Positions 1,424 to 23,303 of a DNA stretch of 23,901 bases are shown one piece after another. Made by a program: the position numbers and the translations under genes. Source of the stretch: a virus. The number at the start of each line of letters is the position of its first letter. The first letter of the stretch is position 1. The notes below the pieces were generated by a model. That model saw nothing but the letters and a program-made list of their open reading frames with translations, was not told the DNA's origin and ran no database searches. Where the stretch lies: positions 1 to 23,901 of IMG/VR virus record IMGVR_UViG_3300025853_014956; one strand, written 5' to 3'.

Positions 1424-1759
1424 AAATAGCGGTTGCCATAGACCAAAGTGGCCATAAAGAAAAAACCAATACGACTTATACACAAGTATTGAGGTAAAAC
1501 TTAGAACCGAACGGGAAAACCTAGGTCCTTTTGGAAGCCCCACGGGGTAAAAAGTGCACCGTCCTACGGGACACAGCAGGCTAATGGGTGGACGTGAAGC
1601 TTCGGACAATTCGTAAGTGATATCGCAGTATTACAGGTTGTGCGCTAAATTTTAGAAAGTAGCGCATAACAAAGACAGCCTAGCGCAGTCTGATAAAATT
1701 AATGATAATGATAACTTAATTTTCGTAATACTCGAAACATTCACATACTGGAGTGTCCT
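1424..1759 (+). ncRNA. Candidate structured leader or small RNA upstream of viperin
   Basis: The stretch 1371-1759 has no convincing gene on either strand. From about 1424 it is G+C-richer than the phage genes around it and full of possible helices: CCC 1538-1540 with GGG 1545-1547; GTCC 1561-1564 with GGAC 1569-1572 around a TACG (UNCG-type) loop; TGCGCTA 1641-1647 with TAGCGCA 1660-1666; AAAATTAA 1695-1702 with TTAATTTT 1716-1723. Two helices have competing partners: TAGCGCA recurs at 1681-1687, and CACCGTCC 1557-1564 can pair, with a one-base bulge, with GGACGTG 1590-1596. This suggests a switching leader, but I match it to no known riboswitch, tmRNA, RNase P or intron class. It could be an independent RNA or the 5' leader of the viperin mRNA. 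The exact ends are guesses. Confidence 0.4.
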
Positions 1760-2644
1760 ATGACATCTATTAATACACAGGGACAAGTGTCCCTTCCCGT
1801 CGCCCTTAACTGGCATTTTGAACCTCGTTGCAACTATCGATGCAAATTTTGCTTCGCACACTTCGCGGACATAGAAGAAAAATCCGATTACCCGATCGAT
1901 CGCCTTTATGCCGATCTCTTCACACGTGGTGTCAGAAAGATCACCTTTGTAGGCGGAGAGCCTATGCTAGATCGCCGTATTGATCACAGAATCACACTTG
2001 CCGCGGAGATGGGTTTTACCACATGTTTGGTCACAAATGGCACCCGTGTCTCACCTCGTTGGTTGGAGAAGATGCGTGGCCACTTACACTGGATAGGCTT
2101 TTCTATTGACGCCTCATCTGATGAATTACATGCACTTATTGGCCGCGGCCGAGCAGGTGAAATCAAGGCGGGTTACAGCAAGCATCTCGAGAGATCCCTA
2201 GTCAGTTGGCGTGCAGCGCAAGAGATGGGTTACAATCTTAAACTTAACACAGTTGTGTGTTATCATAACAAAGACGATGACATGTCTGAGCTGATCAGTC
2301 AATTACAACCTCATCGCTGGAAAGTCTTTCAAGCGCTACCCATCAAAGGAGAGAACGACCATATATGGGATGAACTCGAGATCACGAGCGAAGAATTCCA
2401 AGCATGGGTCGATCGCCACCAACACCTGTCGCCCGTTGTTGAGTCGAATGAGATGATGACAGGCAGCTACTGCATGCTCGACGGCAAGCTTCGCTTCTAT
2501 AACAACGTGGGTGGTGAGTTCAAGCGCAGTGCACCCATACCCGATGTAGGCATGGACAGGGCCTGGAAAGAAATATCGTCATTATTCAGCGATGACACAT
2601 TCCAGCATCGTGGTGGCGTGTGGTCTTGGGAGGTGTCAAAATGA
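1760..2644 (+). CDS. pVip: Prokaryotic viperin homologue (radical SAM, ddhNTP synthase family)
   Basis: A 294-residue radical SAM protein. The viperin signature N-x-H-x4-C-x3-C-x2-C is present as N17, H19, C24, C28 and C31; the three cysteines bind the 4Fe-4S cluster. GGEP follows at 65-68. Further stretches match animal viperin as I recall it: LIGRGR (126-131), KLNTVV (161-166), RWKVFQ (186-191), PIKGEN (194-199), VESNEMM (227-233) and the C-terminal DVG and HRGG. The long N-terminal membrane helix of animal viperin is absent, as is usual in prokaryotic forms. Known viperins convert CTP, and in prokaryotes also GTP or UTP, to 3'-deoxy-3',4'-didehydro nucleotides that terminate viral transcription. 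Which NTP is used here is unknown. GGAGTG at 1750-1755 supports the start. The stop overlaps the next start as ATGA, so the two are probably translationally coupled. G+C is about half by eye, well above the neighbouring phage genes, suggesting transfer. Confidence 0.93.
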   Translation: MTSINTQGQVSLPVALNWHFEPRCNYRCKFCFAHFADIEEKSDYPIDRLYADLFTRGVRKITFVGGEPMLDRRIDHRITLAAEMGFTTCLVTNGTRVSPRWLEKMRGHLHWIGFSIDASSDELHALIGRGRAGEIKAGYSKHLERSLVSWRAAQEMGYNLKLNTVVCYHNKDDDMSELISQLQPHRWKVFQALPIKGENDHIWDELEITSEEFQAWVDRHQHLSPVVESNEMMTGSYCMLDGKLRFYNNVGGEFKRSAPIPDVGMDRAWKEISSLFSDDTFQHRGGVWSWEVSK

Positions 2645-2997
2645 GTTGCACTAACTTGAAAACCGGTCGCCGCAAGTCTAGTTTCACTTCTGAGTCAGAC
2701 GCATTGCGCTGTGCACGTGATATCCGCAAAAAAGGTAGAAATCTAGTACCTTACAAATGCAATCACTGTCCGTCATGGCATTTGCGTTCAAAAAAAAATG
2801 CCAAGCATTACACTGTGTGCAATTGCCGGGATCGCAAGGGTAATCTAAAGCGAGCTTATATCGATCTGGGTAAGGTCATAGATGTGCGTGACATGATAAA
2901 CAGCAAAGGGCAAGGTAAGGTAAAGATATACCGGTGTCCTGAGTTTGCTAATCATGAAGTATGGCATTTGGCAGGCAAAAGAAACATGTTGAGGTGA
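2641..2997 (+). CDS. Two-module zinc-binding protein coupled to viperin
   Basis: A 118-residue basic protein, probably read from ATG 2641, which overlaps the viperin stop as ATGA and is preceded by GGGAGG. An in-frame upstream GTG at 2620 lacks this arrangement. Two similar modules are visible: YKCNHCPSWHL at residues 38-48 (C40, C43, H47) and YRCPEFANHEVWHL at 97-110 (C99, H105, H109), with a further CNC at 60-62 between them. The C-x2-C...WHL pattern recalls small zinc-finger proteins found in phages and actinobacteria. Nucleic-acid binding is likely from the many Arg and Lys residues, but this is inference. Prokaryotic viperins are often paired with a nucleotide kinase; this protein is not one. 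It shares the higher G+C of the cassette. It could be an accessory or regulator of viperin, or simply a passenger gene. Confidence 0.8.
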   Translation: MSCTNLKTGRRKSSFTSESDALRCARDIRKKGRNLVPYKCNHCPSWHLRSKKNAKHYTVCNCRDRKGNLKRAYIDLGKVIDVRDMINSKGQGKVKIYRCPEFANHEVWHLAGKRNMLR

Positions 2998-7636: not shown

Positions 7637-9202
7637 GTGTTAAGTATTAAAGAGGTCAGATCGATCATTAGAAAAAGAATTATAGAGTCTATGATTTTAG
7701 AGTCACATACTTTTTCTAGAGGAAATTTTGCTAAAATGAGAGGTATTGATGGTCAAAAACTTCTTAAGAAAGATGATAGCACAGGACAGATTGTTGATGC
7801 TTATTTTATTCCTAAGGGGTGGCCTGACGATTCTAGTAAAAAGCCTATGAAACAAAACCGGTCTAACAGGGTTTACGAAACCTTAACAGACCAGAATGAA
7901 TTAGATCAACTAAAACTAGAATTAGGCGGAGTTGATAATCAAGAATTAAATGATGCAATATCTAACATTTCTAATATGTCAAGTGAAATGACAAATTTAT
8001 TAGCAATGTCTGCCGAAGACATCATGACATTATGTTTCAAAAGTGATACAAACGAAATAAATAAAATTGCAAAAATATTGATCTCAGATGAAAAAATATT
8101 CAGGCCAGTAAACGCTATTTTTAAAAGAAAAAAAGGTGACAGTTTTAAGCCTGTCGGTTTTATCTTTAAAGGTAACGATAAAAATATTGACCGAAGCACA
8201 CACGATCATGCTGAATTAATTAAAACAGAATTTAATAGTAAAGTATCCAATGCGTTCATGTCAATGTTTAGTAAAGGAGCAATTGATACTTTCGTAAATT
8301 TATTGAAAAAAGCAAAAGATGCTGGTTATACATACTGGGATTTCGCTGAATTGAGTCGTATGCTAGCAATACATGGATTAGGACCGTCTAAAGGGAAAAA
8401 CCTATATGACGCCATCAATATGATTAATCGGTCAGGTTTGCGAAGTAATATCAATACATTACCTAGCTATTTTAACAATCAATTATCTTTTCTTGTAGGT
8501 AATGCTATTAATGAAATTCCACTCTTTAACTATGTAAAAAAAGACGGCACTAGAATTCCAGTTTACGTCGGCGACTATGAAGAAAAAAGACAAGCGCTAG
8601 CTGATGCATTAACGCAAATCATGAATCCTTCTGATCCGGATGATCCGGATAGTTCTAGTCAACCGGTTAGAGGGTCGACTACCCAGGCACAGTCACAGTC
8701 ACAGTCACAGTCACAGTCTTCATCCGGGGTGAGAATGGCTAGATCTGGGTCTAGTAGAGGAGATGGTGTAAGAGGCATTAAAATGAAAACAGAAGCACGT
8801 AGCGGCGAAAGCATCAACACTTTAGACGACTTAGGTTTTAAAGCTGGAACTGATAGAGAGCTTCAAGTTGCCATTAGTGACCTGGTCAAAAATGAAAGAA
8901 AATTTAAAGGAACAGGAATTATTAACTTAGAAGTACTTCTAAACAAACGAGGAAAATTTTCAGGTGTAAAGTTTAGAAAAGGTCAAAATAAATTCGCTGC
9001 AAGGCAAATAGAAATGCTTAAGTCTAAAATTAAAGAGTTTTTAAGAAATGCCCAATATGCACCCATTAATGACCCGGGCAGTGGTACAGCTACTCCAACG
9101 GACTCAGAACAGTGGTATGGATATTCCAAAGATAAACTATTACCTCGTGGAAAGAATTATAGAAGAGGGGCAAAGTTTTACATTAATCTAGAAATATATT
9201 AA
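7637..9202 (+). CDS. Large tagged protein with SQ-repeat linker, unknown function
   Basis: A 521-residue protein read from GTG 7637, with AAAGGAG at 7622-7628 and no better ATG. The N-terminus MLSIKEVRSIIRKRIIES is a shifted version of the tag with I-I-E|S at Glu17 and I-L-E|S soon after. Residues about 30-330 form one unknown region. Then comes a low-complexity linker of alternating Ser and Gln (around 350-365) with Ser/Gly/Arg on each side. The final 130 residues are a separate basic domain ending in a beta strand (YINLEI). That last domain has a faint look of a TonB C-terminal fold (strand, helix, strand) but I would not assign it. The 3' end overlaps the convergent zincin gene by four bases. 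Confidence 0.75.
   Translation: MLSIKEVRSIIRKRIIESMILESHTFSRGNFAKMRGIDGQKLLKKDDSTGQIVDAYFIPKGWPDDSSKKPMKQNRSNRVYETLTDQNELDQLKLELGGVDNQELNDAISNISNMSSEMTNLLAMSAEDIMTLCFKSDTNEINKIAKILISDEKIFRPVNAIFKRKKGDSFKPVGFIFKGNDKNIDRSTHDHAELIKTEFNSKVSNAFMSMFSKGAIDTFVNLLKKAKDAGYTYWDFAELSRMLAIHGLGPSKGKNLYDAINMINRSGLRSNINTLPSYFNNQLSFLVGNAINEIPLFNYVKKDGTRIPVYVGDYEEKRQALADALTQIMNPSDPDDPDSSSQPVRGSTTQAQSQSQSQSQSSSGVRMARSGSSRGDGVRGIKMKTEARSGESINTLDDLGFKAGTDRELQVAISDLVKNERKFKGTGIINLEVLLNKRGKFSGVKFRKGQNKFAARQIEMLKSKIKEFLRNAQYAPINDPGSGTATPTDSEQWYGYSKDKLLPRGKNYRRGAKFYINLEIY
8688..8717 (+). repeat. Five tandem copies of a CACAGT hexamer inside a coding gene
   Basis: The hexanucleotide CACAGT is repeated about five times in frame and encodes alternating Ser and Gln. 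It sits in the linker between the two parts of the large tagged protein. Copy number could vary by slippage in steps of two residues without shifting the frame. Confidence 0.85.
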
Positions 9203-9606
9203 TATTTTTTTGATTCATATATCGCTTTATTTTCAGGCTTTTGTTTAGAAAAAAGTTTTATTAATTCGCCTGCTTTTGCATTGGCTTGATCTTCGTGAAA
9301 GCCTCCAGCGTCTCTAATTGGTCCTCTAATTATTCCGATCTGATCTTGCATCATATGCGTCATTTCGTGTGCAACAGATCTCATCACGTCAGCCAAAGCC
9401 CTATTTTTACAATAGATCTTGCAGCAATTGTTTCCCACTTCATAAAGTGCTGTTGTACTAATACCATGAGGTTCACGAGAATTAACGAGGTGAACTTCAA
9501 AATCACCTTCTATTGGTAAACTATCTGCACAAAACAAAATGAATTCTCCAGCCAACCGCAACTGCTCTGGTCCATAATGTAAGTCTCTGTCAACGTAAAG
9601 ATTCAT
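9199..9606 (-). CDS. HExxH zinc peptidase-like protein
   Basis: A 135-residue protein with HEMTH at 80-84 (H80, E81, H84) and, about 20 residues on, HEDQANAKAGE (104-114), where Glu105 is a plausible third zinc ligand as in gluzincin-type peptidases. A pair of cysteines at 61-62 plus C66 could add structure. No signal peptide is visible. AGGTG upstream on the minus strand supports ATG at 9606. It ends four bases into the convergent tagged gene and starts 15 bases after the end of the minus-strand serine protease gene, so the two protease genes probably form a minus-strand operon. The substrate is unknown. Confidence 0.72.
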   Translation of the reverse strand: MNLYVDRDLHYGPEQLRLAGEFILFCADSLPIEGDFEVHLVNSREPHGISTTALYEVGNNCCKIYCKNRALADVMRSVAHEMTHMMQDQIGIIRGPIRDAGGFHEDQANAKAGELIKLFSKQKPENKAIYESKKY

Positions 9607-9621
9607 ATATCACCTTTTTAT

Positions 9622-10419
9622 TTAATATATATCAATAATATTATCAACTGATATTAGAAAATTGTTAATTTCTCTTTGGCCCGGGCCCATTCCCACATTC
9701 TCAAAATCGACAGCAGCTGCAACTAAAATTGATATTAGTTCTCCCTTCTCATTATACACAGCAGACCCACTGCTTCCAAATGTTGACGGGATTGTGTAAA
9801 TGCACATGACGTCTTCACAGCCTCCAAAATGACCGTCAAAAACTAGTTTTGTGTGTGCTGATGCTATACCACTAGGAGCTGCCACATTTACGACAGGATC
9901 ACCGATAGCAGGCATGCGATTAGCTATTTTTATTTTTTTAAATAATTCATTTTGTTTTTTAAGTGCTTGTAAAAGACAAAGATCATTCTCTTGATCTTCT
10001 AAGATTATACTGGCAACTCTGTTTGATGGTCCGATATAAGCACGAATTACTTTTTCACCTAAGCTTGATAAATACAGAGAGTTTTCCGGGGTACAAAAAT
10101 GACTAGCTGTCAATATAAATATATGAGATCGTGTTGATGAAATGACAACACCCGATGCTGAGGATTCTGTTGTGGTGATTTCATCGCAAGTACCTGCTTC
10201 AGCATCATCGTCTTCACAAAATACCAAGTGTCTTTCTGTCGTTAGAAAAACAAAATTATTTATTTCATGATCTAACTCAGAATTTACTTTCAACATTTGA
10301 TTGGCCGGTTTAACAATCTTTGGTGTGCAGCTATAAAAGTAGTAGCAGCTAGCTAAGAAGAAACATAAAAACGACATAATTAGACTCCTTGGTGTGTTAT
10401 TGATTAGGTTAACAATCAT
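9622..10419 (-). CDS. Trypsin-like serine protease, probable lipoprotein
   Basis: A 265-residue protein from ATG 10419. Residues 1-25 look like a lipoprotein signal: Arg11, a hydrophobic run SLIMSFLCFFLA, then the lipobox L-A-S-C at 22-25. The chymotrypsin-fold triad is visible in order: TASHFC with His107, ENDLCLL with Asp146, and FGSSGSA with Ser217. These sit at normal spacing for a single-domain HtrA/trypsin-like protease without PDZ. Two starts have strong ribosome sites: GAGGT before 10419 and AAGGAG before ATG 10377. The shorter form lacks the positive charge before the hydrophobic run. It would act at the membrane or periplasm of the infected cell. It is upstream of the zincin gene on the same strand. 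Confidence 0.82.
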   Translation of the reverse strand: MIVNLINNTPRSLIMSFLCFFLASCYYFYSCTPKIVKPANQMLKVNSELDHEINNFVFLTTERHLVFCEDDDAEAGTCDEITTTESSASGVVISSTRSHIFILTASHFCTPENSLYLSSLGEKVIRAYIGPSNRVASIILEDQENDLCLLQALKKQNELFKKIKIANRMPAIGDPVVNVAAPSGIASAHTKLVFDGHFGGCEDVMCIYTIPSTFGSSGSAVYNEKGELISILVAAAVDFENVGMGPGQREINNFLISVDNIIDIY

Positions 10420-10480
10420 ATTTACCTCATATAACTTAAGTATTACGAAAAAGTGCAACATAAAATTTAGTGGTGTATAA

Positions 10481-10488
10481 TATAAATA
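10481..10488 (+). promoter_or_regulatory. Candidate late promoter element (TATAAATA)
   Basis: An exact TATAAATA lies 15 bases before the start codon of the UV endonuclease gene, in the 84-base divergent gap. It matches the T4 late -10 consensus as I recall it. Chance matches are expected in AT-rich DNA. Confidence 0.4.
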
Positions 10489-10503
10489 ACACAAGGAGTT
10501 ATT

Positions 10504-11436
10504 ATGACAATACGATTAGGATATGCATGTATCAATATGCACTTACAAAAAACACAAAAAATTACCACAAATCGAGGCATGATTAAAAGAACGTTCAAGG
10601 CAAAAGGCGTTCCGTATGCCTCAGAGCTGGCAGAACACAATACAAGAAACCTTTTACCCATTCTTATGTGGAATCATAAGAACGATATTAAAGTGTTTAG
10701 AATGACATCCTGCCTATTCCCGTGGGGTTCAGAATACGAGCTAGAAGATCTTCCTCATTGGGATCAGATCCAAACTAATCTTAAAAAAGTCGGGGCATAC
10801 GCAAAGCATGTGGGTATCAGGTTATCATTTCATCCGGGCCCCTTTAATATTCTTACTTCTCCAAAAGAACATGTTGTTCAAAATGCAATCAAAGATCTGA
10901 CAATCCACGGTAAAATCATGGATACAATTGGCATGCCTCGGGATCGTTGGTCAAAAATTAACATACATATTGGTGCAACTTATGGAGACAAGCAATCAGC
11001 TATCGATCGATGGTGTAAAAACTATGAGCTTCTTCCAGAAAGTGTCAAGTCTCGTATCACACTAGAAAACGATGACAAAGCTAGCATGTACAGCACTAAA
11101 GACCTATACCAAGTATACAAACGTCTTGGTGTTCCAATCGTATTCGACTATCATCATCACAAGTTTTGTACTGGTGATCAAACAGAAGAAGAAGCGCTTA
11201 AACTTGCAGCTAGTACATGGGGTGATGTTCGTCCTTGCTGTCACTACTCAGAGTCAAAGGCACTCAATGAGGGACTAGATGTTAAACCTCAAGCTCATTC
11301 TGATTATATTTTACAAGAAGTCCAAGACTATGGGCTAGATATTGACGTTGTATTTGAGGCAAAAGCAAAAGAACAAGCGATACTTAAATACAGAGAACTA
11401 TACGGAGACAAGCAATGTCTATTAACAGCAAAATAA
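10504..11436 (+). CDS. uvsE: UV-damage endonuclease (UVDE family)
   Basis: A 310-residue TIM-barrel protein with the UVDE motifs in order: LGYACIN (5-11), FRMTSCLFPW (65-74), LSFHPGPF (107-114), HIGATYGD (155-162), LENDD (187-191), FDYHHH (214-219), CHYSE (246-250), HSDY (265-268) and FEAKAKEQA (284-292). The His, Asp and Glu residues in these supply the metal site. The family nicks DNA 5' to UV photoproducts and other lesions, starting an excision pathway that does not need UvrABC. Length is normal for bacterial members. AAGGAG at 10493-10498 supports the start. The 3' end overlaps the nucleotidyltransferase gene by 22 bases, so they are co-expressed. A phage use would be repairing its own sunlight-damaged genome. 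Confidence 0.93.
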   Translation: MTIRLGYACINMHLQKTQKITTNRGMIKRTFKAKGVPYASELAEHNTRNLLPILMWNHKNDIKVFRMTSCLFPWGSEYELEDLPHWDQIQTNLKKVGAYAKHVGIRLSFHPGPFNILTSPKEHVVQNAIKDLTIHGKIMDTIGMPRDRWSKINIHIGATYGDKQSAIDRWCKNYELLPESVKSRITLENDDKASMYSTKDLYQVYKRLGVPIVFDYHHHKFCTGDQTEEEALKLAASTWGDVRPCCHYSESKALNEGLDVKPQAHSDYILQEVQDYGLDIDVVFEAKAKEQAILKYRELYGDKQCLLTAK

Positions 11437-12130: not shown

Positions 12131-13438
12131 TTATATTCCTTCGATATCATATCCTTTAAGGTCTAAAATATTATATATAAAATCCAAATTTGAATTAGCG
12201 ATATCTCCCTCAGCTGGACTAGTAAAGTCATAATTACCATGGGAGCTTTTTGCAGAGTTTAAAGCAGATTGTAAAAAGGTTTCGTGCTCTCTTTTAATAC
12301 CTCGTGCTGAATTACTGTGTGTAGGTATACCTGCGTTATGCGGATCTAAAAATCGTCTAATTGAATCCATGGAGTTAGGTTCAATGAGAATATTCTCATC
12401 GACGTCTAAAGTAAATTGTCCTGTATGATTATCTCGGCCTAGGTCTCCAACTTCAATTACTTTAGAGTCAATCAATGATTTAAATGCATCCAGCTCTTCA
12501 TTAGTTGCAATTACAAAGCATTTAACTATCGGATAGCCATCTTCATCGACCGTCATATTAATTCCAGTAATCATACCCGGTACACTGTACAATTCATCAG
12601 CTACGTATTCTATAATTTTTTCATCATCATATTCTGAATATACTTCATCGTCTATATTATAGTTGTAGTCGTATCCCAAAGTAATTTCATAAAGCCCTAA
12701 TCCGTCTGTGATATTAGTATTTCGGGAATTAAAATTACTAGTCATAGAGTAGTCCTCAGAATCAAATTCAACACGTACAGGTCCGATATTAGAATCTGGG
12801 TTAAATATTTTGTTTTGTGCACCTATGTGGGTTACAGGGTCACTATCTCGTCGCGACCATTGACGGTAATATCTTCCTGTTTCAAACCTATGAATATATT
12901 CTTTTGCCGAAACATAATCAGAATAAGTAACCGGTCCTATACCTGCCTCATCGACTTGATCAAACAAGGTTTCAAACAACACGTCTAGTTGATTTTTTTC
13001 GCTAGGATTAGGTGCTGTCTTGGTTCTATAACTATAAATATACTCTCTTAATTTTGGATGTTTCTGAACCAACTGATCTCCTAAAAAGGCAATATATCTG
13101 TCTTTAAACCTTTCAATTTCACGTCCTTTCATTCCTCCAGGAATAGTATCTGCAGTTATACCAGTAGCTAAAGTATTGTATTGATTTAACATTGCAGTTC
13201 TCTGTGGGCTGCTATGATACATAGTTTGAGGATTATTGTCTATATCATCTCTAAAAGCTTTAAGCTTTGCTAACATTTTATGGTTATTACTATCGCTCAA
13301 CCAGTTTTTAATGTTATTAAAAATTTCACGTGGCATTGTTGTTTGATCGATATTAGTTCCTGCAACAAAGTCAGCCTTTGCAAAGTCTTCGATTGCTTCT
13401 CTAATTAATTTTCTAACGGTTTTTCTAGTTATTTTCAT
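12131..13438 (-). CDS. Tagged acidic protein of unknown function
   Basis: A 435-residue protein that starts at ATG 13438, which overlaps the stop of the upstream minus-strand gene as ATGA. An earlier in-frame ATG at 13474 would place twelve residues before the tag and lie inside that gene. The N-terminus MKITRKTVRKLIREAI is a textbook copy of the tag with L-I-R-E|A. The body is rich in Asp, Asn and Tyr, with a very acidic middle (about residues 255-285) and no cysteine cluster, signal or membrane helix. No family is recognised. It is the only full-tag gene on the minus strand in this window, and it is translationally coupled to a gene with an internal tag. Confidence 0.8.
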   Translation of the reverse strand: MKITRKTVRKLIREAIEDFAKADFVAGTNIDQTTMPREIFNNIKNWLSDSNNHKMLAKLKAFRDDIDNNPQTMYHSSPQRTAMLNQYNTLATGITADTIPGGMKGREIERFKDRYIAFLGDQLVQKHPKLREYIYSYRTKTAPNPSEKNQLDVLFETLFDQVDEAGIGPVTYSDYVSAKEYIHRFETGRYYRQWSRRDSDPVTHIGAQNKIFNPDSNIGPVRVEFDSEDYSMTSNFNSRNTNITDGLGLYEITLGYDYNYNIDDEVYSEYDDEKIIEYVADELYSVPGMITGINMTVDEDGYPIVKCFVIATNEELDAFKSLIDSKVIEVGDLGRDNHTGQFTLDVDENILIEPNSMDSIRRFLDPHNAGIPTHSNSARGIKREHETFLQSALNSAKSSHGNYDFTSPAEGDIANSNLDFIYNILDLKGYDIEGI

Positions 13439-14181
13439 TTTTTTCTCTTTCTGTGTTTTTGAATTTGTTTCCATTGGGCTGAGTCGACTGATCTAGCTTT
13501 CCCACCTTTTAAAACACTATTAACTCTTGCCATTGCCCATGAATGCGGGTTTTGACCTGATCTAGAACCTGATGAGTAATAAGCACCCATACCTTTTCTA
13601 TATATTGCTTTAAGTGCACCAACAGGTGCATTTCTGTCTTTTGCTTTCTTTTTTAACGCTTTATCAACTTTACTAGATATCTTTCTAGGTTTAGTCTTTT
13701 TCTTCTTTCTCTTTTTTTCTTCTAATTCTTTAACTGCTTCTCTTATTAGAGATTCTAACTGTTCTTTGTTGAGGGTTATAGATTCATTCTTATAATTGTG
13801 TTTTGAAGTCTTTTTTGATTTAAATTGAGATTTTTCAAATCTATCTCTGGCATCCATTGCAGCTTTATCATCAGCCTTTCCAGGTGTTTTCTTAGCTTTA
13901 TTGAATCTTTTAATTAGTTTTTTTAATTGTTCTTGATCTTCAGCTGATCGATTTGCCTTATACCCAGGTGTAAGTTTAGCTTCGTTTTTATTTTTTTTAC
14001 TAGCAATATCTTTTAAGACATCATCAGGTAGGAAGTCCATTTTAGTAACCTTAGGATTATCATCAGCACCTTTTTGAACACTTCTCATACCATTAGGCTT
14101 CTTTTTACTCTTTTTCTTTCCTTCGCTAATATTTTTTTGTAAATTATCTAAAACTAGCTTTATTAATTTATTGTCATCCAT
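13435..14181 (-). CDS. Lys-rich phage protein with an internal tag copy
   Basis: A 248-residue, extremely Lys-rich protein. ATG 14181 is preferred (AAGGT about 10 bases upstream); an extended reading to 14283 has no ribosome site and runs through the divergent promoter region. Residues 1-21 look like a weak tag ending I-S-E|G. Residues 135-153 contain a clear internal tag, NKEQLESLIREAVKEL, with L-I-R-E|A at 148/149. The last 75 residues hold a conserved phage-type domain with ALKKKAKDRNAPVGALKAIY and HSWAMARVNSVLKGG, which I recall from marine phage proteins but cannot name with confidence. The internal site would separate a disordered basic N-terminal part from this domain if a prohead protease acts there. 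An internal core or DNA-binding head protein is plausible. Confidence 0.8.
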   Translation of the reverse strand: MDDNKLIKLVLDNLQKNISEGKKKSKKKPNGMRSVQKGADDNPKVTKMDFLPDDVLKDIASKKNKNEAKLTPGYKANRSAEDQEQLKKLIKRFNKAKKTPGKADDKAAMDARDRFEKSQFKSKKTSKHNYKNESITLNKEQLESLIREAVKELEEKKRKKKKTKPRKISSKVDKALKKKAKDRNAPVGALKAIYRKGMGAYYSSGSRSGQNPHSWAMARVNSVLKGGKARSVDSAQWKQIQKHRKRKK

Positions 14182-14276: not shown

Positions 14277-15452
14277 ATGTCAATATTTAAAAATCACAAA
14301 ACAGTTGCCGATCGATCGGCATCTGATAGAAGAAGACACAAAGAAAAAATTGAAAAGGCTATCAAAGAAGGAATTCATGACATTGTTGCTGAAGAAAGCA
14401 TAATAGGACAAAATGGAAAAAAGAAAATAAAAATTCCTGTAAGAGGAATTAAAGAATATCAGTTTATCTACGGTGTAGGCAATGGTACAAAAGGTGTAGG
14501 ATCGGCTCAGGGTCAAGATATTCAAAAAGGACAAGTTGTTAGACAACCTAATCAAAAAGGGCAAACAGGATCAGGAAAACCAGACAAACCAGGTAATGAT
14601 GCAGGTGAAGATTATTACGATGTAGAAGTTTCACTAGATGAATTAGCAAAATATCTTTTTGATGATTTAAATCTTCCTGATCTGGCTAAAAAACAAAGCA
14701 ATACAATAGAGACTGACAGAATCAAAAGAAAAGGATATAGGCCAAAAGGTATAAGAGCTAGACTGTCTAAAAAAGAGACACTTAAAAATAAGATTAGAAG
14801 ACGAAGTCAGGCAGTTAAAAATGGTACCTACGATCCTGAAAGTGATGAGAGGTTTCCATTTCATCAAGATGATTTAAAGTACAAATACATCGATACACAA
14901 AAAAGACCGGTGACAAATGCAGTTATTTTTATGATAATGGATGTATCCGGATCGATGGGAAAAACTAAAAAGTTTTTAGCCAGATCATTCTTTTTCTTAT
15001 TATATCAGTTTATTAGATACAAATATCAGAACGTTGATTTAGTTTTTATATCCCATACAACAGAAGCAAAAGAAGTTAACGAAGATGATTTCTTTAAAAA
15101 AGCTTCTTCCGGAGGAACATATATTTCATCAGGATTATCGTTGGCAGAAGAGGTTATAATAGAAAGATATAACCCAAGCAGTTGGAATCTTTATACTTTT
15201 CATTGTTCAGATGGTGAAAACTGGTCAGATGACAATGATAAAGCTTTAGAAAAAATGAGTACTTTAATTAAGCTAAGTCAGCTATCCGGATATATTCAAA
15301 TTACTCCCGGTCAAGAAAGTATGTGGGGACAAGAAATGGCAGAAGTATTTGGTCCACTTGTTTCTGATAAATTTAAAGTCTGTAAAATTAAAGAAAAACA
15401 AGATATTTGGCCTCAGTTTGCCAAATTATTTGGAGGTAAATATGAGCTCTAA
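14277..15452 (+). CDS. yeaH: YeaH/DUF444 family protein with VWA domain
   Basis: A 391-residue protein that matches E. coli YeaH in layout. There is a basic N-terminus with RRR and an EGI segment (18-38), a Gly/Gln-rich linker (65-108), YYDVEVSLDELAKYLFDDL (113-131), then a von Willebrand A domain from about 210. The metal site is complete: D222-V-S224-G-S226, Thr281 in GGTYIS, and Asp312 in SDGENW. In bacteria, YeaH acts with the PrkA kinase (YeaG) in starvation and stress responses; the molecular job is not settled. AGGA at 14265-14268 supports the start. The stop overlaps the SpoVR start by 11 bases. It is somewhat shorter than cellular members (about 420 residues). Confidence 0.92.
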   Translation: MSIFKNHKTVADRSASDRRRHKEKIEKAIKEGIHDIVAEESIIGQNGKKKIKIPVRGIKEYQFIYGVGNGTKGVGSAQGQDIQKGQVVRQPNQKGQTGSGKPDKPGNDAGEDYYDVEVSLDELAKYLFDDLNLPDLAKKQSNTIETDRIKRKGYRPKGIRARLSKKETLKNKIRRRSQAVKNGTYDPESDERFPFHQDDLKYKYIDTQKRPVTNAVIFMIMDVSGSMGKTKKFLARSFFFLLYQFIRYKYQNVDLVFISHTTEAKEVNEDDFFKKASSGGTYISSGLSLAEEVIIERYNPSSWNLYTFHCSDGENWSDDNDKALEKMSTLIKLSQLSGYIQITPGQESMWGQEMAEVFGPLVSDKFKVCKIKEKQDIWPQFAKLFGGKYEL

Positions 15453-16773
15453 CAACGATTGGTCTGTTGAACAGCTAAAAGAATGGGATAATAAGATTTG
15501 TGAAATTGCCAGTGGTTATGGTCTAGACTGGCATGAGATTACTTATGAGATATGTGATTACTACGAAATGATTGGTCATATGTCATACCATGGTATGCCT
15601 AGTCACTACAATCATTGGTCGTATGGAAAGTCTTTTGAAAGAACTCACTTCATGTATAATCAAGGGCAAAGCGGTTTACCTTATGAGTTGATCATAAATT
15701 CTAACCCATCAATTGCTTATTTAATGATGCAAAATCCTTTATATCTGCAGGTTTTGATTATGGCACATTGTGTAGGTCATAGTAGCTTTTTTAAACATAA
15801 TAGAATGTTTAAAGATACTGATCCGGATCATATTGTCTCGAGAATGAGAAACGCAAAAAAAAGAATTCAAGGATACATAGAAAACCCACTTATTGGTCAA
15901 AATAAAGTTGAGAATTTTTTAGACAGCCTTCACGCGATTAAATATCAGACTAATAGATACAATTCTCCTAGAAAGTCTAGAAGTGAAATAAAAACAAATG
16001 AAATTAAGAAGTTTAATCATTACAAAAAGAAAGGAATTATTTTAGACTTTGATAATTTATCAAAGCAAAGGCTTTTAAAACCCGATCATGACATCTTATC
16101 TTTTTTTGGCGAATACTATCCAGATTATTATTCAGATTGGCAGTTAGATCTTATTGAGATCGTTAAAAATGAAAGTTGGTATTTTATGCCGCAAATCCAA
16201 ACAAAAATATTAAATGAGGGGTGGGCATCTTTTTGGCATTATAAAATACTTCATGATTTAAATCTTCCTGATGAAATGCATTTACCTTTTCTAAAAATGC
16301 ACAATGCAGTTGTTAGGCCTCACCTAGGAGGTGTTAATCCTTATCACTTAGGATTTTATATTTTTCAAAAAGTTGAGAGAGAACAAGGATTAGAAGCTTG
16401 CTTTGACGTAATGAAAACACACGATGACGTTTCAGCAATTAGACTTCTTTTAGACGAGGACGACTTAAGAGAATTAAATTTCTTTGCCTATGAAAATCAA
16501 AAAGACGGAAGTGCAGTTGTATCTGAAGTTGTTGATCATGATGACTGGAAAACAGTAAGAAATCAATTGATTAAAAATACGGGTATTAATATGATTCCTC
16601 ATATTTACATTGATAGAGTTGAAAATGACAATACATTAGTGCTCAAACATGAGCATGATGGCCGAGACTTAGACTTAGATTATGCAGATAAAGTCATGGA
16701 CCACATTAGGGAAATATGGCCTCATGAAGTTAAGCTTTATACAGTAATTGAAGAAGAAGTATGGGAATTTTAG
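15442..16773 (+). CDS. spoVR: SpoVR/YcgB family protein
   Basis: A 443-residue protein read from ATG 15442, with GGAGGT just upstream and inside the end of the YeaH-like gene. SpoVR hallmarks are present: GLDWHEITYEICDYYEMIGH near residue 25, GMPSHYNHWSYGKSFE (about 50-66), YNQGQSGLPYELIINSNPS (about 71-89), MAHCVGHSSFFKHN (about 110-123) and NEGWASFWHYKILH (about 255-268). The conserved His and Glu residues suggest a metal-dependent fold, but the activity of the family is unknown. It was named for a role in Bacillus spore cortex formation. In proteobacteria it travels with PrkA and YeaH, as here. It is shorter than E. coli YcgB (about 510 residues), mostly at the C-terminus. Confidence 0.93.
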   Translation: MSSNNDWSVEQLKEWDNKICEIASGYGLDWHEITYEICDYYEMIGHMSYHGMPSHYNHWSYGKSFERTHFMYNQGQSGLPYELIINSNPSIAYLMMQNPLYLQVLIMAHCVGHSSFFKHNRMFKDTDPDHIVSRMRNAKKRIQGYIENPLIGQNKVENFLDSLHAIKYQTNRYNSPRKSRSEIKTNEIKKFNHYKKKGIILDFDNLSKQRLLKPDHDILSFFGEYYPDYYSDWQLDLIEIVKNESWYFMPQIQTKILNEGWASFWHYKILHDLNLPDEMHLPFLKMHNAVVRPHLGGVNPYHLGFYIFQKVEREQGLEACFDVMKTHDDVSAIRLLLDEDDLRELNFFAYENQKDGSAVVSEVVDHDDWKTVRNQLIKNTGINMIPHIYIDRVENDNTLVLKHEHDGRDLDLDYADKVMDHIREIWPHEVKLYTVIEEEVWEF

Positions 16774-16829
16774 TTTACATTTCCAAAAAAAAGAATTAAA
16801 TTATTAATATATCACAAGGGAGCATAATA

Positions 16830-18779
16830 ATGGCACGCGCAAAAGCAAATAAAAAAGACTTTCTTGATTTGATCACAAATCAAAGAGAATCTAAAAAAAG
16901 AGATAAATTTGAAGGAACTTTTCTTGATTATTTAGAAAAAGTAAGAACAGATCCGGAAATGATTAAACTGGCACATAGAAGACTTTATGAAACAATTAAA
17001 GATCAGGGTGTCAATACATTAGACGTCGGCAGTGAAGGATACAGAGATATTTTTAATGGCGACAAGATTAGAAAATATGATTATTTTGAAAAAGAATTTT
17101 TTGGGATGGAGTCAGTTATCAATAAATTGATGAGATTCTTGAAGTCGGCTGCTTTCAAGGGTGAAGAAAGTCGACAGGTTCTTCTTTTAATGGGCCCAGT
17201 AGGTGCAGGTAAGTCTGCATTAATCGATTCAGTTAAGCGTGCTTTAGAAGGTGCAGATAACTATTTTTACCTAGAGGGTTGCCCAGTAAGAGAAGAGCCT
17301 CTTCATCTCTTACCACGTGGTCTAAGAAAAGATTTTGAAGATATCTTAGGCGTGCATATTGAAGGTGATTTATGTCCTGTATGTCGTCACAGACTAATTC
17401 ACGAATTTGATGGTAAATATGAGAATTTTCCAGTTAAGGAGACGGGTTATTCGCAGCGAGGTCGTAGAGGTATTGCAGTAGTTCCACCTATGGATGCAAA
17501 CTCACAGGATGTCTCTGTGCTGATCGGAACTGAAGATATTAGTAAACTAGATCTTTATCCAGAAGATGATCCACGTGTACTCTCTCTTAACGGTGCGTTT
17601 AACGTAGGTAACAGGGGTATTGTTGAATTTGTTGAAGTATTTAAAAATGAAATTGAATTTTTACATACAATGCTGACAGCGACACAAGAGAAACGTGTGC
17701 CTACTCCAGGTAAAAACGATATGCTTTATTTTGATGGTGTGATATTATCCCATTGTAATGAGTCAGAGTGGAACAGATTTAAATCTGAACACACTAACGA
17801 GGCTATTTTGGACAGGGTGTTAAAAATTGAAGTACCGTATGTGCTCGAACTAAATCAGGAACAAAAGATTTATGAAAAAATTCTAGGAAAGTCTGATTTT
17901 AGAGGTGCACACATTGCACCACATACTTTAAAAGTAGCATCAATGTTTTCAGTGATGTCTAGATTACAAAATTCAAATAAGTGCGATTTGTTGACTAAAA
18001 TGAAGATTTATAATGGTGAAGCTATTATTGAAAAAGGTCGCGTTAAAAAAGTAGATATTCGTGATCTTAAAGATGAAGCTAAACACGAAGGCATGGAAGG
18101 TATCTCTACCCGATTTATTATGAAAGCTTTAGATGCAGCTTTATCTGATTCAGAAAGTGGTATGATTACACCAATTAATGTTGTTGATTCACTCGTTAAA
18201 CAAGTTAAAGAGCAGATTATCGATGAAGATGCCAAAACTCGATACTTAGAAATCTTGCAAAAAATTATTCGCGAAGAATACTTAAGAATTCTAGAAACAG
18301 AAATTGCAAAAGCATTTATTACTGCATATGAAGAACAAGCACAGTCTTTATTTGATTCTTACCTAGACAATGCTGAATGTTTTACTACTAAATCAAAAGT
18401 AAAAAATAAAATTACACGTGAAGAATCAGAGCCTGACGAAAAATTCATGAGAACTATTGAAGAGATGATTGGTGTTGTAGGTTCGGCAAGAGATGGATTT
18501 AGAAACGATGTAACTGCTTATATGTTTTCTAGATTAAGAAAGGGCGAGACAGTTGATTATAAGTCTTATGGTCCCCTCAAAGAAGCAATCGAACAATATC
18601 TTATTTCATCTGTTAAAGATATTGCACGCATTGTTACAAGATCTAAGTCTAGAGATGACGACCAAAAGAAAAAATATGTCGACATGATAGAAACGTTGAT
18701 TCACGAATATGGATATAATGAAGCATCTGCAGAGGAAATTTTAACGTATGCGTCAAATAACTTGTGGCGAGACTCATAA
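16830..18779 (+). CDS. prkA: PrkA-type AAA+ serine protein kinase (YeaG-like)
   Basis: A 649-residue protein. The N-terminal AAA+ module has the Walker A loop GPVGAGKS at 122-129. A small cysteine-rich stretch follows, CPVREEPLHLLP (C151) and LCPVC (C182, C185), as in the family. The C-terminal third is the helical PrkA kinase-like region. Length and order fit full-length PrkA/YeaG, which has been described as a serine kinase and more recently as an AAA+ protease-like factor acting under nutrient stress. AAGGGAG at 16816-16822 supports the start. It follows SpoVR by 56 bases, and its end overlaps the next gene by 32 bases. In this phage-like setting it could reprogram a starving host. Confidence 0.93.
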   Translation: MARAKANKKDFLDLITNQRESKKRDKFEGTFLDYLEKVRTDPEMIKLAHRRLYETIKDQGVNTLDVGSEGYRDIFNGDKIRKYDYFEKEFFGMESVINKLMRFLKSAAFKGEESRQVLLLMGPVGAGKSALIDSVKRALEGADNYFYLEGCPVREEPLHLLPRGLRKDFEDILGVHIEGDLCPVCRHRLIHEFDGKYENFPVKETGYSQRGRRGIAVVPPMDANSQDVSVLIGTEDISKLDLYPEDDPRVLSLNGAFNVGNRGIVEFVEVFKNEIEFLHTMLTATQEKRVPTPGKNDMLYFDGVILSHCNESEWNRFKSEHTNEAILDRVLKIEVPYVLELNQEQKIYEKILGKSDFRGAHIAPHTLKVASMFSVMSRLQNSNKCDLLTKMKIYNGEAIIEKGRVKKVDIRDLKDEAKHEGMEGISTRFIMKALDAALSDSESGMITPINVVDSLVKQVKEQIIDEDAKTRYLEILQKIIREEYLRILETEIAKAFITAYEEQAQSLFDSYLDNAECFTTKSKVKNKITREESEPDEKFMRTIEEMIGVVGSARDGFRNDVTAYMFSRLRKGETVDYKSYGPLKEAIEQYLISSVKDIARIVTRSKSRDDDQKKKYVDMIETLIHEYGYNEASAEEILTYASNNLWRDS

Positions 18780-21229: not shown

Positions 21230-21255
21230 AAAGAGATGCAATGCATCTCTTTTTT
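21230..21255. terminator. Bidirectional Rho-independent terminator
   Basis: AAAGAGATGC (21230-21239) and GCATCTCTTT (21243-21252) form a perfect 10-bp stem with an AAT loop, followed by a T run on the plus strand and matched by an A run on the other side. It sits between the convergent histone-like gene and the sigma-like gene, and so can stop both. Confidence 0.88.
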
Positions 21256-21493
21256 ATATTTTAATTTTATCTTTTAGCTTTTTGATTGCAATTTTTTCAA
21301 TTTGACAAATTCTCATTCTTGTAACTTTAAATAGATCACCTATGTCTTGAAGTGTAAACTTATCCTCAGCTTCATTATTTTCTCTAATTAAATTGATACA
21401 ACAATTATTAGACGATTCTTTGTTTATCCAATACCGACAATTTTTACGTTCACATTTTTTTTGACAATTTTTGTTGAATTCGTAACATTTCAT
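21254..21493 (-). CDS. Cys-rich protein with sigma-region-4-like helix-turn-helix
   Basis: A 79-residue protein. The first 32 residues carry six cysteines (C3, C10, C14, C19, C31, C32), which looks like a metal-binding knuckle. Residues 46-75 (FTLQDIGDLFKVTRMRICQI, then EKIAIKKLK) match the -35-binding helix-turn-helix of sigma-70 region 4, whose usual form is TLEEIG..LGVTRERIRQIE..AL.KLR. There is no region 2, so it cannot be a full sigma factor. It may be a region-4 mimic or a transcription regulator acting on promoters or host RNA polymerase. GAGGA before the start on the minus strand supports ATG 21493. It is the only minus-strand gene in the last 7 kb and is transcribed away from phoH. 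Confidence 0.82.
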   Translation of the reverse strand: MKCYEFNKNCQKKCERKNCRYWINKESSNNCCINLIRENNEAEDKFTLQDIGDLFKVTRMRICQIEKIAIKKLKDKIKI

Positions 21494-21562: not shown

Positions 21563-22927
21563 ATGAAAGATAGAAAAATATTCATTATTGATACAAGCGT
21601 TTTGCTTTATGATAAAAACTCAATTCACTCATTTCCAGAAAATGATTTATTAATTCCTCTAGTTGTCTTAGACGAATTAGACATGTTTAAGGATAAAAAG
21701 GGTTTAATAGGAGAAAACGCAAGATATGTCAATAGATTTTTAGACGACTTAAGATCAAAAGGAAACTTGCATCAAGGTGTAAAGTTAGACAATGGACAGA
21801 CAATTAAAGTTGCATTAAACGGATTTAATAAAGTTCCTGTTGGTCTAGATCCTAATTATGCAGATAATAAAATGTTGTCTCTTGCTTTAAATCTACAACA
21901 AACAGTTGATAATCAAAGAATTGTATTAATAACAAAAGATATTAACTTTAGAGTTAAATGTGATTCCCTAGGAATACAATCTGAAGACTACTATAAAGAT
22001 AAAGTTCTCTTAGACGACGAAGAGGTCTTTAAAGGATATTTTGAAATAGAAACGCACGACGTGTTTTTAATTGATGATTTATATGACTATGTAAGTGATA
22101 AAAACGCAAATAAAGATGAAGATACATTAGAAGAGTTTTTGCAATTATGTCAAGAAGAACTTGGTAGAAAACCTTATGAAAATGAATTTTTTTGTGTCAA
22201 AGCAGAGCCGTCTAAGTCTTTTTTAGGATGCTTTGAAAAAGGTGATATTGTTAAAGTTTACCAATCTTCTGAATTCTTTGATGCATTTTCCAGAATGGGA
22301 ATCAAAGCAAAAAACAGAGAGCAACTTTTTGCACTAAATGCTCTTTTGGACCCGTCTTTACCATTAATATCAATTTCCGGTCTGGCGGGTAGTGGTAAAA
22401 CATTTATCGCATTAATGGCAGCGTACGCACTCGTGCAAGAAGGGTATTATAATAGAATTGTTTTTACAAGAAACGTGCAGCCTGTAGGGCGGGATATAGG
22501 ATTTTTACCAGGGACAGCCGATGACAAAATGAACCCATGGATTGCTCCAATTATGGATAATTTTAGAGTAGGTCTAAACGATACTAATCTTTCGTTGTTT
22601 AAAACTTTAAAAGAGCAAGGTGTGATTGAAATTGCGCCATTAACATTTATTAGAGGTAGAACTTTCAATGACAGTATTCTTATTATGGATGAGGCACAAA
22701 ACGCTACTATACATGAATTAAAAACTGTAATCACAAGAATGGGAGAAAACTCTAAGATTATTTTATTAGGAGATGTAGACCAGATCGACACGCCTTATAT
22801 CGATGCATTATCAAATGGTCTTACTATAGTTTCAGAAAAGTTTAAAAGCGAAAATTGTGCTGCTCACATCGCATTAAAAAGAGGTGAAAGATCTCATTTA
22901 TCAGCAGTTGCTGCAAGGATTATATAA
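21563..22927 (+). CDS. phoH: PIN-PhoH protein (PhoH2-type RNase/ATPase)
   Basis: A 454-residue fusion. Residues 5-135 are a PIN nuclease domain with the acidic set Asp10 (FIIDTSVLL), Glu38 (VLDELD), Asp101 (YADNKML) and Asp126 (ITKDINFR). Residues 250-454 are the PhoH ATPase with Walker A GLAGSGKT (273-280) and Walker B ILIMDEAQN (372-380), plus GDVDQID (403-409). This is the PhoH2 layout, linked to RNA unwinding and cleavage in bacteria. PhoH genes are common in marine phages, often as auxiliary metabolic genes with an unsettled role. Length is normal. The following small gene starts two bases after its stop. Confidence 0.94.
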   Translation: MKDRKIFIIDTSVLLYDKNSIHSFPENDLLIPLVVLDELDMFKDKKGLIGENARYVNRFLDDLRSKGNLHQGVKLDNGQTIKVALNGFNKVPVGLDPNYADNKMLSLALNLQQTVDNQRIVLITKDINFRVKCDSLGIQSEDYYKDKVLLDDEEVFKGYFEIETHDVFLIDDLYDYVSDKNANKDEDTLEEFLQLCQEELGRKPYENEFFCVKAEPSKSFLGCFEKGDIVKVYQSSEFFDAFSRMGIKAKNREQLFALNALLDPSLPLISISGLAGSGKTFIALMAAYALVQEGYYNRIVFTRNVQPVGRDIGFLPGTADDKMNPWIAPIMDNFRVGLNDTNLSLFKTLKEQGVIEIAPLTFIRGRTFNDSILIMDEAQNATIHELKTVITRMGENSKIILLGDVDQIDTPYIDALSNGLTIVSEKFKSENCAAHIALKRGERSHLSAVAARII

Positions 22928-23277: not shown

Positions 23278-23303
23278 TATATGCATTGGAGGTAATGCAT
23301 ATG
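23278..23303 (+). promoter_or_regulatory. RNA hairpin presenting the Shine-Dalgarno in its loop
   Basis: Bases 23278-23287 (TATATGCATT, with one G-U pair at the base) pair with 23294-23303, leaving GGAGGT (23288-23293) as the six-base loop. The ATG start at 23301 lies in the stem. GGAGG to ATG is 8 bases, the normal distance. It looks like a translational control element. Confidence 0.65.

Follow-up and report, generated by a model that had tools for sequence, protein, structure and literature searches.

An apparently functional viperin in a tailed-phage genome and its probable zinc-ribbon partner

The stretch of DNA analysed here (the whole 23,901-nt stretch of IMG/VR record IMGVR_UViG_3300025853_014956, one strand, hereafter the window) encodes a 294-residue protein that is almost certainly a true viperin, in a genome that leaves us hardly any doubt of being that of a phage. 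The viperin gene overlaps the gene of a 118-residue double zinc-ribbon protein, and we give roughly even chances to the reading that the coupled pair would exclude rival phages with T7-type RNA polymerases by means of 3'-deoxy-3',4'-didehydro-NTPs (ddhNTPs). Viperin itself is a textbook antiviral enzyme, common to animals, archaea and bacteria. An earlier note on this DNA had the viperin reading frame exactly right but missed the coupled gene, through which the unit reaches position 2997. The unit consists of the following features:

1750..1753, plus strand: GGAG, a probable ribosome-binding site 6 nt ahead of the viperin ATG, read from the sequence
1760..2644, plus strand: viperin (radical-SAM nucleotide dehydratase family), 294 residues, ATG start, TGA stop, frame intact
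1829..1852, plus strand: codons of C24-N-Y-R-C28-K-F-C31, the [4Fe-4S]/SAM motif, its three cysteines unchanged in all 35 aligned viperins
2641..2644, plus strand: ATGA, in which the start codon of the 118-residue gene overlaps the viperin stop; the sequence suggests translational coupling
2641..2997, plus strand: double zinc-ribbon protein of 118 residues, a probable viperin partner with orthologues beside phage viperins

Family membership and a complete active site are demonstrated at the level of sequence and predicted fold. The protein passes the family threshold of NCBIfam model NF038283 ('viperin' (SAND)), scoring 254.3 bits where the curated cut-off is 180; the best non-viperin model of that collection, MoaA, gives 58 bits, far below the 284 set for that model. 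The PADLOC pVip model matches with an E-value of 1e-72, the non-kinase pVip model outscoring the kinase pVip model, and a PDB sequence search aligns residues 9-291 with mouse viperin (chain 5vsl) at an E-value of 7e-43. In our own profile search, radical SAM proteins outside the viperins score at most 81 bits and full-length viperins at least 188. An AlphaFold model (pLDDT 87.8) was aligned by Foldseek to CTP-bound mouse viperin (6q2p) with a TM-score of 0.85 at 33% identity; the 30 best PDB fold matches are all viperins, with E-values down to 5e-24, and the next fold appears at 1e-12. Viperin thus ranks first in NCBIfam, PADLOC, the PDB sequence search and Foldseek, and a generic radical SAM protein is ruled out by the score gap and the fold match. 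The earlier note had preferred a viperin to such a protein on the strength of the signature NxHx4Cx3Cx2C and of viperin-specific stretches, and its preference holds: the signature is present in full as N17-x-H19-x4-C24-x3-C28-x2-C31.

The residues aligned to mouse C84, C88, C91, K120, K220, N222, R245, K247, E293, Y302 and D306 are all identical. Six of these in the phage protein, K60, K161, N163, R186, K188 and Y237, align with mouse K120, K220, N222, R245, K247 and Y302, which we take to contact the nucleotide. Near the GGEP loop, T62 and V64 replace mouse N122 and S124 in the alignment, a substitution within the range of the family since other viperins show N or T, and A or V, at these places. 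Relative to animal viperin (RSAD2), with which it shares the fold, 33-35% identity and every active-site residue checked, the phage protein differs in these two residues and in lacking an N-terminal membrane helix. It resembles the prokaryotic viperins (pVips) in family, active site, length and fold; the known pVips, however, are cellular, residing on chromosomes or plasmids. In four plasmid relatives (L014, L018, L229 and L230) a deoxynucleoside or thymidylate kinase lies just upstream, whereas the phage viperin has the zinc-ribbon neighbour instead, and Pfam reveals no nucleotide kinase, adjacent or fused, in the window. On its residues and fold the phage viperin is apparently functional, and very probably would make a ddhNTP.

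The window is an IMG/VR record and carries PhoH and similar genes, with no structural hallmark. Assignment to a phage therefore relied on relatives, which share the following backbone:

9199..11436, both strands: left part of the conserved phage backbone, with a 135-residue HExxH protein (minus), a trypsin-like peptidase (minus) and a UvdE UV endonuclease (plus), by Pfam; collinear in relatives
14277..18779, plus strand: YeaH (DUF444)-SpoVR-PrkA cassette, phage backbone, by Pfam
21254-21493, minus strand: protein of 79 residues with a sigma-70 region 4 match (9.6e-9), conserved in relatives
21563..22927, plus strand: PhoH-like protein, phage backbone (Pfam; PHROG 1.7e-100)

A search of IMG/VR with the viperin returned two contigs (G001, 61 kb, and G002, 41 kb) whose viperin is 85% identical to that of the window and, being the same in both, evidently marks a single phage species. 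Both are collinear with the window from the viperin through the ORF at 23286, with the YeaH-SpoVR-PrkA cassette 80-84% identical. At its far end G001 encodes baseplate wedge proteins of the T4-like type (2.7e-7 and 1.1e-7), and a late-sigma match there is weak. A PrkA query returned 20 IMG/VR contigs, the related ones being up to 237 kb long, and the order UvdE-NTase-YeaH-SpoVR-PrkA-...-PhoH is common to about 20 contigs as far as each extends. Four of these relatives (G312, G317, G320 and G321; 110-237 kb) possess a large terminase and a T4-type prohead protease of family S77. Another, G318, encodes proteins 100% identical to those of the window over the shared ORFs and starts past the viperin region. 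No near relative of the window phage was found among GenBank phages. PrkA relatives in GenBank phages are only 30-35% identical; YeaH, SpoVR and PrkA are bacterial stress and sporulation kinase genes. The terminase, S77 and baseplate genes, found in collinear relatives and not in the window, establish the lineage as one of large T4-type tailed phages (Caudoviricetes). Extension of the contig through its relatives thus bears out the earlier reading of the genome as viral.

That reading would have failed had the contig been bacterial, or chimeric at 1.4 or 3.1 kb. Neither is the case, because separate contigs of different phages repeat the same gene pair in the same place, and this synteny rules out a chimera or contamination. 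The GC content of the viperin gene, 49% against 33-39% in backbone genes, is what an assembly artefact, contaminating bacterial DNA or a passenger gene in decay might produce. A decayed gene would hardly retain an intact frame, a complete active site and a pN/pS of 0.14, and we regard this whole group of explanations as extremely improbable. The same elevated GC hints at an outside origin of the viperin.

The viperin appears to be accessory cargo within a variable island. It occupies the same site in the second phage (G001/G002) and in G303, where the contig end cuts it to a C-terminal part of 168 residues, 84% identical. Other relatives are without it, which is what makes it accessory: G315 reaches some 12 kb, and G312 and G301 about 5 kb, further upstream than the point where they correspond to the window, and neither these parts nor the remainder of the three contigs contain a viperin. 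The earlier note had correctly placed a viperin in a phage genome and missed both this accessory status and the recurrence of viperins in other phages. Comparison of the window and G002 viperins gives a pN of 0.116 and a pS of 0.811, and the resulting ratio is similar to those of the backbone genes PrkA (0.15) and YeaH (0.16), showing purifying selection. Protein divergence between the two phages is likewise 15% for the viperin and 16% for PrkA. Given these PrkA-like values, the viperin has most likely stayed with the sub-lineage, under constraint.

The viperin-coupled 118-residue double zinc-ribbon gene is, on present comparisons, new here. The protein is an internal duplication: its first half contains Y-x-C-x2-C-x2-WHL, which the second half repeats as Y-x-C...WHL. 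It stands beside all three phage viperins of the lineage (window, G002 and G303); the orthologues adjoining the viperin in L002 and L226 are 46-47% identical to it, and the stop-codon overlap recurs, with a GTG start in G002 and ATG in G303. Among 22,231 stop-to-stop segments, a count biased by loci gathered partly around viperins, the family is clear only beside phage viperins and upstream of the spirochaete viperin L038, at a distance of about 0.35 kb. A search of 296 spirochaete genomes, free of that bias, found homologues in seven. Two of the seven carry the homologue on one contig with a viperin-family gene and in the same orientation, the distances being about 0.36 kb and about 4 kb; the other five have no viperin, so the family is not exclusive to viperins. 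We consider the protein a probable viperin partner from its gene neighbourhoods. Its predicted fold is of low confidence (pLDDT 72) with no PDB match below an E-value of 0.27, and for this reason it stays an unnamed double zinc-ribbon. One spirochaete gene run may be an extended viperin operon, the last four genes having overlapping ends:

L253, 5977-11078 (Treponema saccharophilum plasmid pTS2): zinc-ribbon protein, 79-residue ORF, nucleotidyltransferase, PEP-binding protein, cysteine desulfurase and divergent viperin

In three other spirochaete genomes (L248, L250 and L251), where no viperin accompanies it, the zinc-ribbon gene has as neighbours large proteins that resemble one another at the N-terminus (ME...YGxIxIxQ...).

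Viperins also occur in viruses outside this lineage. With an alignment of nine viperins as query, IMG/VR viral contigs yielded eleven further full-length viperins and one cut one. The IMG/VR proteins L040, L042, L043, L045, L046 and L050, L047-L049, and L041 and L044 are true viperins (>250 bits), on several contigs accompanied by phage genes, and are 28-39% identical to that of the window. Among the contexts examined, L042 and L048 show a terminase, L047 and L048 a tape-measure protein, L045 a phage DNA polymerase, L043 a helicase-primase and L040 a Sak4-like recombinase. The earlier note had called for a phylogeny with prokaryotic and virus-derived homologues. In the resulting tree, built without an outgroup and rooted for drawing only, the window viperin pairs with L001 on a long branch (support 100/100), six other viperins form a second clade exclusively of IMG/VR contigs, and L047 groups with a Sulfitobacter plasmid viperin. 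The AU test does not reject a common ancestry for the two phage clades (p 0.31). In the phylum of the Lachnospiraceae viperin, 1 of 399 genomes has a viperin.

In L045 (9974-12855), which belongs to an unrelated phage, the viperin gene and the start of the gene for the phage DNA polymerase overlap, so that the viperin may be expressed with the replication genes. Such an arrangement would suit a role in metabolism or nucleic-acid modification, with viperin making an altered nucleotide for the phage's own use, as would another unrelated phage, L042, whose viperin lies about 6-9 kb from genes resembling the 7-deazaguanine pathway. No genes of this kind lie near the viperin of the window phage, however, and a chain terminator is a poor building block; we judge this role quite improbable.

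Searches of described phages gave little comparable. Querying 50,697 GenBank phage records by tblastn with three different viperins returned weak radical SAM matches or nothing, and the best 50 matches among BFVD structures have TM-scores of at most 0.65 and identities of 11-19%. The earlier statement that no well-characterised phage viperin was known stands for the open-access literature, in which we found none, the surveys of Bernheim 2021 and Shomar 2024 falling outside that scope. One paper (PMC12028318) does list 'viperins' among the accessory genes of Vibrio Schizotequatroviruses, identified with DefenseFinder in two runs, one of them without gathering cut-offs. These are, like ours, radical SAM proteins of T4-like phages, in that case marine. 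Two members of that genus, KVP40 and phi-pp2, reach at most 42 bits, with about 115 of 281 positions aligned, where 180 bits is the cut-off. Such partial matches indicate that KVP40 and phi-pp2 have no viperin, and for these two phages the published claim was not reproduced.

Many otherwise unrelated proteins of the island share the N-terminal leader MK(I/L)(T/N/S)RRQLRRLIxE(S/A):

72, 858, 3151, 4672, 5334, 6869 and 7637, plus strand; 12131-13474, minus strand; and L219, L220, L221 and L223: leader-bearing proteins

The element (L/I/V/M)xE begins at residues 9-14 in 91% of 32 leaders, a set chosen partly by the first 12 residues, as against 15% in shuffles. Since relatives encode a T4-type prohead protease, the leader looks like a capsid-targeting sequence, one that would mark packaged, perhaps injected, proteins. 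Neither the viperin nor the 118-residue protein has it, and the viperin is therefore probably made in the cell rather than packaged. Regulatory scans of the sequence were uninformative: the T4 late promoter TATAAATA has 5 sites where 4.2 are expected, a promoter and terminator scan was at or below chance, and Rfam gave no match above threshold.

Bacterial viperins make ddhCTP, ddhGTP or ddhUTP, and ddhNTPs end RNA chains (PMC10732462). In E. coli, T7 RNA polymerase is inhibited by the chemistry of viperins (PMC9642334, PMC11291487), and PMC11291487, with Bernheim et al. 2021 cited there, describes bacterial and Asgard archaeal viperins as protecting E. coli against T7. No T7-type RNA polymerase was found in 11 related contigs, which are genome fragments, in a search for that type only that recovered the polymerase of phage T7 as positive control (E 1e-109). 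From its absence in the parts covered, the carrier would not be expected to poison itself by the classical route, and ddhNTPs should hit rivals more than the carrier. We propose that the viperin would be made in the infected cell, where, with SAM and a reductant, it would dehydrate one or more NTPs to ddhNTPs; these would terminate the RNA chains of single-subunit T7-type polymerases brought by co-infecting phages. The carrier would be little affected, as it probably relies on the RNA polymerase of the host together with sigma-like factors of its own, and the zinc-ribbon protein would help the viperin or regulate it, the net outcome being superinfection exclusion. That the main role of the viperin is directed against rival phages is, in our estimate, an evenly balanced proposition.

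The main rival to this proposal is an attack on the host, in which ddhNTPs or a drain on NTP pools would damp host transcription or force a dormancy-like state favouring the phage. Other backbone genes, the YeaH-SpoVR-PrkA cassette and the sigma region 4 protein, also look host-directed. A T4-type phage dependent on host RNA polymerase would nevertheless harm itself, the related contigs offer no T7-type polymerase as an escape, and published assays express viperins in living E. coli (PMC11291487). Host take-over is accordingly unlikely, although less so than a third role, counter-defence, whereby modified nucleotides or the zinc-ribbon protein would jam a nucleotide- or reverse-transcription-dependent host defence. 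An accessory gene in a variable island suits such an arms race, but specific sequence evidence is lacking, and we know of no example of counter-defence by a viperin; this role is about as improbable as that in modification.

Returning to the exclusion of rival phages, its fullest form would make the two-gene cassette an offensive phage-phage weapon, with the zinc-ribbon protein as an undescribed viperin cofactor or regulator that is also found with some spirochaete viperins; we hold this tentatively, at somewhat less than even chances. The retention of a functional-looking viperin by a virus lineage suggests that the ddhNTP weapon is also wielded by viruses, most plausibly against each other. 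Through such phages viperins may pass from one cell to another, and the coupled zinc-ribbon gene offers a concrete candidate for a partner of the enzyme.
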